Position numbers and translations under genes: made by a program. From Paremcibacter congregatus (GTDB lineage Bacteria > Pseudomonadota > Alphaproteobacteria > Sphingomonadales > Emcibacteraceae), in the NCBI RefSeq assembly GCF_006385135.1, contig NZ_CP041025.1:2387501-2451500 (forward strand): a DNA stretch of 64,000 nt, in the 5' to 3' direction. Below the pieces are notes generated by a model that did no database searches, was not told the origin of the DNA, and saw only the letters and a list, made by a program, of their open reading frames with translations. Position 1 is the stretch's first letter, and each line of letters begins with the position of its first letter. Positions 46,373 through 51,275 of the stretch are shown here, in pieces.

Positions 46373-47241
46373 CCTGCGCCTTTTAAGTCCAGGGCCCGGG
46401 CATATACTTGTTTGCGTTTTAACCCCAATTCCCCCGTCACCGATGCCACAGCCTCTTTCAACGATTGTGTTTCCAACGCGGCCAACAGGGCTGCATCAAG
46501 TTGATCGGCACTCACCACCGTTTCCTGCGGCGGCCCCACGACGATCACAATTTCCCCTTTGGGGCGATCCGCCGCCTCATAATGCGCCGCCAGTTCTGTC
46601 AGAGAGCCTTTGCGCACTTCTTCAAACAACTTGGTCAGTTCACGACAGACGGCGGCTTCCCGCGGCCCAAGAACCGCCGCAATATCCCGCAGGCTGTCCT
46701 TCAGGCGCTTGGGCGATTCGTAAAATACCAAGGTCGCCTGAACATCTGCGACACTCGCCACCATTTTCTGACGCGCCAGGGTTTTATTGGGCAGGAAACC
46801 CGCAAACATAAAACGATCCGTCGGCAGACCTGCACTGGCCAGGGCGGCCAGTATGGCGCTCGCCCCGGGAATGCTGCTGACGAAACTGCCCTGATCACGG
46901 GCCTCTTTAACCAGCCGGTAGCCTGGGTCGGAAATCAACGGCGTGCCAGCGTCACTGACCAGGGCAACGATTTCCCCCGCCGCCAAACGGTCAAGCAACT
47001 GCGGCAGGATACGTTCTTCATTGTGGTCGTGATAAGGCACCGTCGGCGTCTTGATATCGAAATAGGCCAGCAGCTTCCCCGTTACCCGGGTATCTTCACA
47101 GGCAATGATATCCGCCTGGTCCAGCACCTCTCGTGCGCGAAAGGTCATATCGCCAAGATTGCCGATCGGTGTCGCGGTCACATAAAGGCCAGGCGCCACT
47201 TTTTTTCTTTTTTCGGCTTTTTTATCTAATTCAGTTGGCAT
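46369..47241 (-). CDS. rsmI: 16S rRNA (cytidine(1402)-2'-O)-methyltransferase
   Basis: A 290-residue SAM-dependent tetrapyrrole-methylase-like enzyme that 2'-O-methylates C1402 of 16S rRNA. Motifs are YVTATPIGNLGDMTFRAREV, CEDTRVTGKLL, LVSDAGTPLISDPGYRLV and MFAGFLPNK. The ATG at 47241 has AAGGG seven bases upstream; 47247 is a close alternative, while the longer frame to 47481 runs into the divergent lipoprotein gene. It is the first gene of the rsmI-yraN-SirB1-gshB run. Confidence 0.97.
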   Translation of the reverse strand: MPTELDKKAEKRKKVAPGLYVTATPIGNLGDMTFRAREVLDQADIIACEDTRVTGKLLAYFDIKTPTVPYHDHNEERILPQLLDRLAAGEIVALVSDAGTPLISDPGYRLVKEARDQGSFVSSIPGASAILAALASAGLPTDRFMFAGFLPNKTLARQKMVASVADVQATLVFYESPKRLKDSLRDIAAVLGPREAAVCRELTKLFEEVRKGSLTELAAHYEAADRPKGEIVIVVGPPQETVVSADQLDAALLAALETQSLKEAVASVTGELGLKRKQVYARALDLKGAG

Positions 47242-47259
47242 TTTCATACCCTTGCCATA

Positions 47260-47265
47260 ATTATA
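47260..47265 (-). promoter_or_regulatory. Consensus -10 element for rsmI
   Basis: A perfect TATAAT on the minus strand, 18 bp before the rsmI start codon. No good -35 hexamer is present at 16-18 bp, so this is a weak call. The region between rsmI and the divergent lipoprotein gene is only about 120 bp and must hold both promoters. Confidence 0.35.
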
Positions 47266-47359
47266 GTCTTCTCTGGGATCGTAGCGTATTTTTGTTATAA
47301 AGAGTATGACAGAAAAAAACAGAGAAGAATGACCAAGACAGAGTAGACGGGACCCTGGT

Positions 47360-48862
47360 GTGCGGAACGGCTTGATAAAAAATTCGGCAATGATACTTAT
47401 CCTGACCTTGGGTCTGGCGTCCTGCGGTGGCGGCAGCAAGCCATTGACACGGGATGGCGGCAGCCTGCCCCCGGCAACCACCCAACAGGACCAACAAGAC
47501 AGAGATCAGCTTAGCGCAGAAGACGACCGCACACCCCGGCAGGAAATCCGTATTGGCTTTCTTGTCCCCCTTAGCGGGCCCGACGGCCCCATTGGGCAGG
47601 CGATGCTGAATGCGGCGACCCTTGCATTGTTTGATTCCCATGACAAAAGACTGGTTCTGTTGCCCCACGACACACAAGGCACCGCAGAAGGTGCAACGGA
47701 GGCCATGACATCGCTTGTCGCGCAACAGCCGGACCTGATCCTCGGGCCATTGTTTTCTCATTCCATTGCCGCCATAAAACCCCTTGCCCAAAACGCCGGC
47801 ATTAATGTCATCGGCTTTTCAAGCGATCATACCGTCGCCGGCAACGGTGTCTTTCTGATGAATTTCCGCCTGGAAGAACAAATCCGCCGCGTGATGCGCT
47901 ACAGCTCCGATCAGGGCTATGCCCGCTATGCCGCCCTGGTGCCTGAAACCTCTTATGGCACCCGCGCCCTTGAAGTGTTCGGCGCCAGCGTCATGGATCT
48001 GGAACGTGACATGGTGACGGTGGAATTTTATCCAGCCGACAGCACCAAACTGGTGCCACCCGTGAAAAACATCGCCAATTATGACCACCGTCGCAACCTG
48101 TTTATCCGCGAAATGGCCTTCCTTGACAGCCTCGGGGACGAGGATGACTTCGCCTCCGAACTCAAGGAAGACATCAAAAACGCTGAAACCCTCGGCACCA
48201 TAAAATTTGACGCCCTGTTACTGCCCGAAGGCGGCGCCATGCTGACCACCCTCGCCGCATGGGTATCCTATTATGAAATTGACCCGACCAAGGTCAAGTT
48301 GATCGGCACCGGATTGTGGGATGATGAAATGCTGTTTCATGAACCGCAACTTTACGGCGGCTGGTTTGCCGCCCCGGACCATGAAGTCTCCGATAAGTTC
48401 CTCGCCCGTTATCGCGACAGCTACGGTAAGGATAGCCCGCGGCTCAGTACCCTGGCCTATGATGCCATGGCACTGACAGCAACTCTGGTGCGTCATGATG
48501 CCGTGCCGAATTTCTCCACCGAAAATATCATAGATGAAAATGGTTTCACCGGCGTGGAAGGCTTGTTCCGCTTCACACAGGATGGTCTGATCGAACGAGG
48601 GCTTGCGGTTTACGAGGTAACGGCCAATGCCTTCATCGTTGTTGATCCTGCCCCCACACATTTCATTGATCAGGACAGGGAAACCGCTGTCCGGAACCTG
48701 ACGGCGGCAGTCACGCCAGAAGACGCCCCAGAAGACCATTCAGCAAAGGCATCCCTTGGGCTGTCACCCCCAAATGAGCTTGTGCCTGCGCCGCCGGTTG
48801 ATACGCGGCCTTTTCCATATAATCCAGTTCAAAAAGACGCTCTAAATACTGAGAATCAATGA
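47360..48862 (+). CDS. Penicillin-binding protein activator (LpoA-like) lipoprotein
   Basis: A 500-residue lipoprotein with a periplasmic-binding-protein type I fold (about residues 65-420). The signal ends in the lipobox LASC. The domain opens IRIGFLVPLSGPDGPIGQAML, as in LppC/LpoA proteins that activate PBP1A in gammaproteobacteria and in related alphaproteobacterial proteins. The start is probably the GTG at 47360 (an ATG at 47390 would cut the signal). The final 50 residues ([21 protein letters not shown] and on) are low-complexity and lie antisense to hemW. rsmI diverges upstream, as is typical for this gene. Confidence 0.88.
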   Translation: MRNGLIKNSAMILILTLGLASCGGGSKPLTRDGGSLPPATTQQDQQDRDQLSAEDDRTPRQEIRIGFLVPLSGPDGPIGQAMLNAATLALFDSHDKRLVLLPHDTQGTAEGATEAMTSLVAQQPDLILGPLFSHSIAAIKPLAQNAGINVIGFSSDHTVAGNGVFLMNFRLEEQIRRVMRYSSDQGYARYAALVPETSYGTRALEVFGASVMDLERDMVTVEFYPADSTKLVPPVKNIANYDHRRNLFIREMAFLDSLGDEDDFASELKEDIKNAETLGTIKFDALLLPEGGAMLTTLAAWVSYYEIDPTKVKLIGTGLWDDEMLFHEPQLYGGWFAAPDHEVSDKFLARYRDSYGKDSPRLSTLAYDAMALTATLVRHDAVPNFSTENIIDENGFTGVEGLFRFTQDGLIERGLAVYEVTANAFIVVDPAPTHFIDQDRETAVRNLTAAVTPEDAPEDHSAKASLGLSPPNELVPAPPVDTRPFPYNPVQKDALNTENQ

Positions 48863-49922
48863 ATTCATCTATTTTCTGACCGACCCGCTTCTCAAATGCA
48901 TCCAATGCAATTCCCCCGTTAAGCCGCAGCCCCATCATAATCATTTCTTCCGCCTTCATCTGTGCGGACAGGGCCTCTTTCTGATCCGTAGCATGTCCCG
49001 CGGCAGCCACATTTTTCAACCATTTCTCCGGACTGCGGTCCTGGGTCAGGGCATAAAGCTCCCCCTCTATGGTCAGACGACCATGAGCGCCAGGCCCGAC
49101 GCCAATATAATCCTGATAGGTCCAATAGGCCAGATTATGCCGGCTTTCCTCGCCGGGGCGCGCATGATTGGACACTTCATAGGCCGGAAGACCATGGGCG
49201 TTACAAATCTGCTGCGTCAAATCATACATATCCGCCGCCACATCTTCTTCCGGCAGAATAAGGCGGCCCTTCTTATGGGCGTGATAGAAAGATGTGCCGC
49301 GTTCTATGGTCAGTTGATAGAGCGACAGATGTCCGGCGATATTGCTGTCGTCGACCAGAGCCAGCGCCTGTTTCAATTCCGTTTCCCATGCCGTCAGGGA
49401 CTGGCCCATACGGGCATAAATCAAATCAAAGCTCGACCTGGTGAAATATTTCTGGGACAGGGCGATGGCGTCTAATGCCTCTGAAACACTATGTTCCCGG
49501 CCAAGCGCCTTCAGGTCTTCATCCTGAAGCGCCTGAATGCCGAGCGAAACCCGATTAATCCCCGCAGCGGAAAAGTCTTTGAATTTTTGTGCTTCCACAC
49601 TGGTTGGGTTGGCTTCCAGAGTGATCTCGACTGCCCGGTCCACCGTCCACAATTGAGCGATGGTCGTCAGGACACGTTCCGTGGTGGTTGCTGCCATCAG
49701 GGACGGGGTGCCACCGCCAAAGAACACGCTGGTCACCTGTCGCGGGCCGGATAAGCCCCGATAATGGGTCAACTCACGGCACAGGGCGTCAGCCCAGGCC
49801 GTCTCGTCTATGCTGTCCCGCACATGACTGTTAAAATCACAGTAAGGGCATTTGGACAGGCAGAATGGCCAATGTACATAAATCGCCAGAGGCGCTATGG
49901 GAGTGTCAGGTAAAGCAGGCAT
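48711..49922 (-). CDS. hemW: Radical SAM family heme chaperone HemW
   Basis: A 403-residue radical SAM protein. The CX3CX2C cluster motif is in [15 protein letters not shown], and GGGTPSLM follows. HemW proteins bind haem and are no longer thought to be oxygen-independent coproporphyrinogen oxidases. The C-terminus [19 protein letters not shown] is the usual family end, so the gene is full-length although its last 152 bp overlap the convergent LpoA-like gene. The start overlaps the end of rdgB by 17 bp. Confidence 0.96.
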
Positions 49923-50535
49923 TGATTAATTTTCTAAAGGCATCGGCCCGATGGCTCATGCCATGTTTTTTGGCGGCCTCCATCTCGCCGAATGTCAGGG
50001 TTTCCCCGTCGGCCTGAAACATGGGATCATAGCCGAACCCCTGATCGCCACGGGTTGGCCAGACCAGCGTTCCGTAAACCCGACCTTCGAATGTTTCCAC
50101 ATGGCCTTCAGGATAATCGGCAGACGCCGGCCAGGCGAGCGACAGGGCGCAGGCGAAGTAAGCCGCCCGATCAGCATCTGTTTTTTCCAGCTCCCGCTGC
50201 AGTTTTTCCATACCATAGGGGAAATCGCGTTCCCCCGTTGCCGGATTGATCGCCCAGCGGGCCGAATGGATACCGGGTCGCCCGTCGAGCGCCGGCACCA
50301 CCAGTCCACTGTCATCGGCAAGCGCCATAAGGCCGGCCCGCGACGCCGCACTTTTCGCCTTCAGTTCGGCATTGGCGATAAAGGTCGCACCGTCTTCCAC
50401 GGGTTCCGGTAAATCAAGTTCCGCCGCCGAAAGGGTTTCCACCCCGAACGGCGCCAAAAGGTCCCCGATTTCCCTCACCTTGCCGGCATTATGGCTGGCG
50501 ACCACCAATTTCTCGCCGCTAAATTTTCGTGTCAT
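49906..50535 (-). CDS. rdgB: RdgB/HAM1 family non-canonical purine NTP pyrophosphatase
   Basis: A 209-residue housecleaning enzyme that hydrolyses dITP, XTP and ITP to monophosphates. Seen are the N-terminal [13 protein letters not shown], the catalytic region [21 protein letters not shown] and the C-terminal [15 protein letters not shown]. It lies 23 bp after rph and overlaps hemW, the conserved order rph-rdgB-hemW of alphaproteobacteria. Confidence 0.97.
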
Positions 50536-50558
50536 GTTGATGGTCCCTCTTCCGTATC

Positions 50559-51275
50559 TTAAAGGCCCAGGGCCTCATTCTGCAGTTTCACCAGCTGGTC
50601 CACACCAATACGCGCCAGACGCATCAGACGCAGAAATTCTTCTTCCGTGAAAGGATGCTCTTCGGCAGTCCCCTGAATCTCGACAATCCGCTTGTCGCCG
50701 GTAAGAACAAAATTGGCGTCGGTTTCCGCCACGCTGTCTTCATCATAATCCAGATCCAGCACCGGCTGACCTTTATAAATACCACAAGAAACCGCCGCCA
50801 GGGGCGACTTGATCGGCAAGCGGTCCAGCTTCCCTTCCGCAATCATTTTCTGGAAACACTGCACCATTGCCGCATAAGCGCCGGTGATTGATGCGGTGCG
50901 TGTTCCGCCATCGGCCTGAAGCACATCACAGTCCAGGCGAATCTGACGTTCCCCCAAGGCTTCCATATCGACAACGGCCCGCAGAGAACGTCCGATCAGA
51001 CGCTGAATTTCCTGGGTTCGGCCTGATTGCTTTCCCCGGGCTGCTTCCCGTCCCATACGGCTGTGGGTGGAACGTGGCAGCATGCCATATTCGGCTGTCA
51101 CCCAGCCCTTGCCCGTATCGCGCAGGAACGGAGGCGCCTTGTCTTCCAACGTCGCCGTACACAACACATGGGTGTCGCCAAACTTGATCAGGCATGAGCC
51201 TTCCGCATGTTTGGTAAAGCCCATCTCTAGAGTAACGTCGCGAAGTTGGTCTGCGGTACGGCCTGAAGGACGCAT
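50559..51275 (-). CDS. rph: Ribonuclease PH
   Basis: A 238-residue phosphorolytic 3'-5' exoribonuclease that trims tRNA 3' ends. It shows [14 protein letters not shown] at the start, [20 protein letters not shown], the phosphate-binding [18 protein letters not shown] and [21 protein letters not shown]. An AGGAG site stands eight bases before the ATG. It heads the rph-rdgB-hemW unit. Confidence 0.98.

Follow-up and report, generated by a model that had tools for sequence, protein, structure and literature searches.

Long convergent overlaps between bacterial genes are mostly written off as errors of annotation or as accidents; selection in overlapping genes has reportedly been addressed by Rogozin et al. 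In the excerpted text of PMC2478687, 178 convergent overlaps of more than 60 bp are considered, of which 124 were judged to be errors and 54 possibly real, and most of the possibly real ones are conserved only in very close species. The (123:132) arrangement is the commonest phase in the excerpt of PMC2174442, accounting for 49% of 1218 convergent overlaps of 5 nt or more, and the stop-codon changes needed for convergent overlaps are treated in PMC4161906, likewise excerpted. A related group of systems comprises antisense proteins embedded in bacterial genes, which the excerpted text of PMC7457138 reviews and which are also the subject of PMC9927249 and PMC5960689, as excerpted. Our literature searches (hemW or Emcibacteraceae with overlapping genes, in one wording each) gave an unrelated paper and a taxonomy survey and found no account of an overlap between hemW and a lipoprotein gene, the arrangement described here.

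Results

The window analyzed here, a 64,000-nucleotide stretch of Paremcibacter congregatus DNA, lies in a genome of 4.19 Mb assembled as a single contig. It contains a lipoprotein gene and hemW in tail-to-tail orientation, with yraN, rsmI, rdgB, and rph as neighbors of the lipoprotein gene:

47360..48862, plus strand: lipoprotein gene, 500 amino acids, GTG start, TGA stop
Plus strand, within the lipoprotein gene: signal peptide with lipobox LASC (recognized by eye), the cysteine being residue 22
Residues 62–421 of the lipoprotein: Peripla_BP_6 (type-1 periplasmic-binding-protein) domain, followed by a linker and the C-terminal tail
48711..49922, minus strand: hemW, 403 amino acids, radical SAM and HemN_C, with an end normal for its family
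48711..48862, both strands: convergent overlap of 152 bp including both stop codons, phase (123:132)
48713..48862, plus strand: last 49 lipoprotein residues and stop, wholly antisense to hemW
48806..48826, plus strand: RPFPYNP motif, unchanged in all 14 genomes sampled from the genus

Both frames are open and full-length, as first noted; both genes are bona fide and, lying on opposite strands, have well over 60 bp of 3' coding sequence in common. HemW passes its equivalog model (TIGR00539, 286.8 bits against a cut-off of 205.4), and the last 20 residues in question align with the other hemW ends of the family (30 sequences), which confirms the earlier view that this end is family-like. In the (123:132) phase, hemW codon positions 1, 3, and 2 lie opposite lipoprotein positions 1, 2, and 3; the hemW wobble position is the lipoprotein second position, and the hemW second position is the lipoprotein third position.

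What kind of protein carries the antisense-encoded tail? The description LpoA-like can be kept only in part. The Pfam LppC score of 28.6 bits falls below the curated cut-off of 28.8, and the match spans only LppC positions 219–384 of 563, whereas Peripla_BP_6 scores 95.5. A structure model built from 36 sequences (mean pLDDT 85, pTM 0.79) has a well-folded periplasmic-binding-protein domain preceded by few, mostly low-confidence residues; its best fold matches are LivJ-type ABC solute-binding proteins, with H. influenzae LpoA (5vbg) among the matches at rank 49. A literature search found no paper joining penicillin-binding protein activator, Alphaproteobacteria, and LpoA. The prediction was made to learn whether the tail docks on its own lipoprotein domain; the tail was modeled as disordered, with residues 464–500 below pLDDT 50. 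The original prediction had called the tail low-complexity; this agrees with the disorder and with a composition rich in Pro, Asp, Glu, and Ala by eye, but the tail does hold an invariant motif.

The overlap is a property of the family rather than of one genome. Our sample consisted of 32 genomes of the family, relatives of which bear the name Emcibacteraceae; the records of named relatives in the window's genus and family read Emcibacter sp., Emcibacteraceae, Kordiimonadaceae, or unclassified Alphaproteobacteria assembly. Both genes occur as convergent neighbors in 30 of them; the other two, G003 and G004, have no orthologue of either gene and are assemblies that are 64% and 69% complete. The pair overlaps in 29 of these 30 genomes by 122–206 bp (lengths of 122, 125, 128, 131, 137, 140, 152, 164, and 206 bp), an agreement in length among orthologues that guards against misannotation. 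Exactly 131 bp are shared in 15 of the 29, every length is 2 modulo 3, so that a single codon phase, (123:132), is used in 29/29, and the lipoprotein tail antisense to hemW measures 40–68 residues. Four genera retain the overlap, with lipoproteins at about 50% identity. G018 is the sole genome with both genes and no overlap, the two being separated by a 67-bp gap. In G010 the lipoprotein is split by an assembly frameshift, and the overlap was measured from its C-terminal piece alone. Two of the genera, g2 and g3, are represented by one genome each and entered the overlap count, the openness estimate, the Leu-codon check, and the tree. G014, near-identical to G009, was kept for the overlap count, openness estimate, parsimony steps, and Leu-codon check and dropped from the rate, folding, and third-position tests.

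By eye, a 12-bp tandem repeat is visible inside the overlap at loci L042 (G010), L003 (G008), and L005 (G006), where the overlaps measure 164, 152, and 140 bp, respectively. The repeat extends both proteins together in opposite directions, by PIDT units in the lipoprotein and YQSG units in hemW.

Outside the family, the two genes mostly abut or overlap by at most 39 bp, and the lipoproteins mostly stop just before, or just inside, hemW. Among other families of the same order, 19 of 26 loci are convergent pairs (overlap −137 to 57 bp), the other 7 having no convergent hemW in the stretch; two further loci of this set, L052 (G015) and L053 (G004), come from family genomes and carry a divergent second lipoprotein copy, at about 35% identity, without an adjoining hemW in the fetched stretch. 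A set of further order members yielded 11 pairs from 20 (−88 to 32 bp), with no lipoprotein match next to hemW in the other 9. The named set, whose loci largely repeat family genomes and some order-set genomes so that counts are not summed together, provided 36 convergent pairs at 51 loci outside the family, 15 loci being without convergent hemW in the stretch. Same-phase overlaps of 23 or 26 bp occur in 15 of these 36 pairs, four pairs overlap by 90 bp, and the others overlap by at most 32 bp or not at all.

The four 90-bp overlaps (L136, L138, L143, and L150, with records labeled Rhodobiaceae, uncultured Alphaproteobacteria, and IMCC14465) involve the same lipoprotein/hemW pair in another codon phase and apparently represent a second overlap, independent of that in the family. 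Their lipoprotein end, V.P[VI]LQ, is conserved, and the tail is also present in L145 (PS1 clade) but stops short of hemW there.

Which of the two genes was extended? HemW ends at query residues 402–403 in 30/30 family members, and of the 19 convergent pairs from other families of the order, 17 have a hemW that reaches residues 401–403, which rules out hemW as the extended partner. With the hemW end fixed and outside-family lipoproteins ending near it, overprinting by a 3' extension beyond an old lipoprotein stop, as originally proposed, is upheld. A tree (FastTree) built from those positions of hemW and the lipoprotein that are not shared, with 21 chosen loci from outside the family, unites the 29 overlapping genomes in one clade (local support 0.981), and G018 is their sister inside the 30-genome family clade (support 0.998); the root is rough, Sneathiella standing next to the family at 0.50. 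A single gain, placed on the stem of the 29, is enough, whereas an earlier gain followed by a loss in G018 takes two steps.

An antisense frame may stay open by chance. Given the hemW protein and codon usage, the probability of a frame this open is 0.39–0.61 per genome across the window's genus, with 0.41 for the window genome itself. It is 0.05–0.22 in g5, the other well-sampled genus, and 0.31 for g2 and 0.59 for g3, each represented by one genome. A single open frame proves nothing, whereas its conservation in 29/30 genomes together with codon-level constraint does. Of 40 hemW genes from beyond the overlapping clade, 3 have this antisense frame open for at least 122 bp (1/20 in the same-order set, G018 included, and 2/20 in the further order set). 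No in-frame stop is seen within the overlap, compared with 8.3 expected from synonymous resampling in the window's genus (g1) and 20.8 in g5. One leucine codon is critical: placed before an asparagine that is Asn in 30/30 family members, CTT or CTC at this hemW position would stop the lipoprotein, and neither is used in any of the 29 overlapping genomes. Together, CTT and CTC account for a share of 0.22 among the leucine codons of hemW in g1 and of 0.36 in g5, and the leucine just before is CTT in 19/29. Based on the outgroup overlaps and the rarely open frame outside the clade, it is likely that changes in hemW lengthened a short same-phase overlap; this probably happened once, and the longer form would then have been kept.

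How freely does hemW evolve within the overlap? Rate tests covered 13 of 14 genomes in g1 and 13 of 13 in g5, with g2 and g3 left out. Among amino-acid-matched pairs, the overlap has a hemW codon identity of 0.712 in g1 (expected, 0.511) and 0.715 in g5 (expected, 0.421), and this was matched by 0 of 20,000 random column sets in each genus; the best of 282 contiguous background windows has an excess of +0.059 in g1, and likewise in g5. Substitutions that are synonymous in hemW and change the lipoprotein occur at 0.131 per opportunity in g1 and 0.125 in g5, as compared with 0.216–0.233 and 0.242–0.274 in four control windows; synonymous change in the older gene is lower inside the overlap in two genera. 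The reciprocal class, which changes hemW and is synonymous in the lipoprotein, lies above all four controls in g5 (0.090 vs 0.049–0.067) and only just above the top control in g1 (0.074 vs 0.044–0.070). The class altering both proteins is not lowered, at 0.054 in g1 and 0.064 in g5 (controls 0.048–0.076 and 0.058–0.076).

Pair counts in the codon-identity and substitution-class tests are not independent events; parsimony, which counts tree steps instead, yields for hemW positions 1/2/3 a per-codon step count of 1.50/1.27/1.82 in g1 (14 genomes; background 1.24/0.86/3.47) and 1.90/1.61/1.98 in g5 (13 genomes; background 1.69/1.03/4.49). HemW second positions vary more in the overlap than in the background, and the ratio of position-3 to position-2 steps, 1.43 in g1 and 1.23 in g5, is below that of every background window (minima 2.25 and 2.78).

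The lipoprotein frame shows the other side of this pattern. Antisense-frame identity is 0.589 in g1 and 0.584 in g5. Synonymous resampling gives 0.314 and 0.236, respectively, and no control window exceeds 0.447 in g1 or 0.378 in g5. The corresponding z values, which are not probabilities, are 20.2 and 35.0 for the overlap and 2.7–12.4 for the controls, which exceed the resampling null because related genomes share codons. A contrast of synonymous with nonsynonymous third-position transversions in the lipoprotein frame (1.61 vs 1.23, sd 0.46, in g1; 1.49 vs 1.33, sd 0.33, in g5) does not by itself separate the overlap from the controls in either genus.

Opposite the invariant RPFPYNP of g1, hemW switches between D and G in 4 steps and among K, M, and R in 5, all at hemW second positions and with no wobble step. 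In g5 the tail motif is different, [FY]DP[VI]FGL, and hemW keeps particular codons opposite this region, such as ATA for isoleucine in 13/13 genomes, the background ATA share being 0.27. Tail sequences differ between genera while position and phase are kept. A tail shared by distant relatives had been named as evidence against overprinting; the same motif does recur throughout the genus, but across genera the sequences differ. The earlier suggestion, by implication, of an accident confined to one lineage that left a tail devoid of meaning is not supported, considering that the overlap is family-wide, that one origin suffices, and that the tail behaves as if under purifying selection in its own frame. 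Judged from these sequence comparisons, the tail is probably a genuine peptide of some use rather than residual junk.

Discussion

We propose the following model for the origin of the overlap. The ancestral genes would have stood tail to tail, either without any overlap or sharing a short stretch, commonly of 23–26 bp. On the family stem, after the G018 lineage had split off, changes at the hemW end would have removed the lipoprotein's in-frame stop, and the lipoprotein frame would then have run 40–68 codons into the hemW antisense strand in the (123:132) phase. The new tail would be an unstructured C-terminal extension of an envelope lipoprotein and would have gained a short linear motif, RPFPYNP in g1 and [FY]DP[VI]FGL in g5, that would now be under purifying selection, most simply through docking of a periplasmic or envelope partner. 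A disordered tail with an invariant seven-residue stretch suggests such a docking motif, and the difference between the genera would mean that either the partner's preference or the motif itself changed. We infer the translation of the tail, the order of these events, the docking role, and the partner. With considerable confidence, we regard the tail as overprinted, with a genus-specific short motif and purifying selection in both frames. We lean slightly towards the further proposal that a functional motif born from the hemW antisense strand now dictates hemW codon usage and steers its choice of amino acids; if so, a newer sequence constrains an older, conserved enzyme.

Could the overlap have persisted passively, the stop having been lost once, with hemW happening to leave the frame open and the tail a tolerated, unselected ballast? 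The chance openness calculated for the window's genus, the disorder of the tail and its divergence between genera, and the undiminished class of substitutions altering both proteins are all compatible with this. Synonymous change in hemW, however, is about halved only in the overlap, hemW amino acids vary where the lipoprotein is synonymous, and the frame rarely reaches 122 bp in hemW genes outside the overlapping clade, which makes passive persistence improbable. An annotation or assembly artefact, whereby a frameshift or missed stop in one genome would overstate the length of the lipoprotein, has a precedent in the many public overlaps judged to be errors (PMC2478687, as excerpted), but the same phase and similar lengths in 29/30 family genomes render it barely credible here. 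The same count rules out a sequencing error or a recent, lineage-specific loss of the stop.

Constraint might instead act on the nucleic acid, if the 3' end of hemW contained a shared terminator, a hairpin, or a regulatory site that fixed the codons. The convergent transcripts could form a 152-bp RNA duplex, as envisaged from the sequence. Consensus folds of the overlap, on both strands, have a modest stability advantage over shuffles (z −2.2 to −4.5), but the signal is weak: the energies amount to only −3.6 to −7.4 kcal/mol, and of the control windows, three per genus, 1/6 reaches z −3.4 to −3.6. At g5 loci (e.g., L016 and L021) a conserved imperfect inverted repeat, ACCAAA...TTTGGT, spans the hemW 3' end and its stop; by eye, it was not seen in the window's genus. 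Terminator-like matches in 46900–50700 are at shuffle level (7 vs a mean of 4.9, sd 2.4), one weak plus-strand match (48796–48810) falling inside the overlap. Moreover, the hemW wobble position is constrained and hemW second positions are not, and an element of this kind would not be expected to track lipoprotein codons. The codon-position pattern fits protein coding better than a nucleic-acid role, and we consider the latter unlikely as the source of the constraint.

What is the relevance of such an overlap? Given a single-origin fit, an overlap-free outgroup, many genomes, and measurable constraint, the pair can be used to study the birth of a C-terminal peptide from antisense sequence and the yielding of an older enzyme gene to it. 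It also calls for caution, as trimming of such overlaps during annotation can delete a conserved part of a protein.

Based on the lipoprotein's fold, the LpoA/LppC penicillin-binding-protein activators are comparable in that they, too, are lipoproteins with a type-1 periplasmic-binding-protein fold; in contrast to them, the protein described here falls just under the LppC cut-off, and many LivJ-type solute-binding proteins match it better. Embedded antisense proteins (PMC7457138, PMC9927249, and PMC5960689, in the excerpted text) resemble the tail in being encoded antisense to a conserved gene through overprinting. Unlike these, the tail prolongs the product of an already existing, conserved gene at its C terminus, and no new promoter or start is needed because the lipoprotein's own start lies outside the overlap. 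Also comparable are the long convergent overlaps in the excerpted PMC2478687 and PMC2174442, which are likewise tail to tail over more than 60 bp, via 3' extension of one gene; the phase found here, (123:132), is the commonest among convergent overlaps. The overlap described here differs from those of PMC2478687, as excerpted, in extending over four genera with a single-origin fit and in showing constraint consistent with coding in both frames. That the lipoprotein/hemW pair joins the known long convergent overlaps, and is unusual among them in its age and measured constraint, is well supported.
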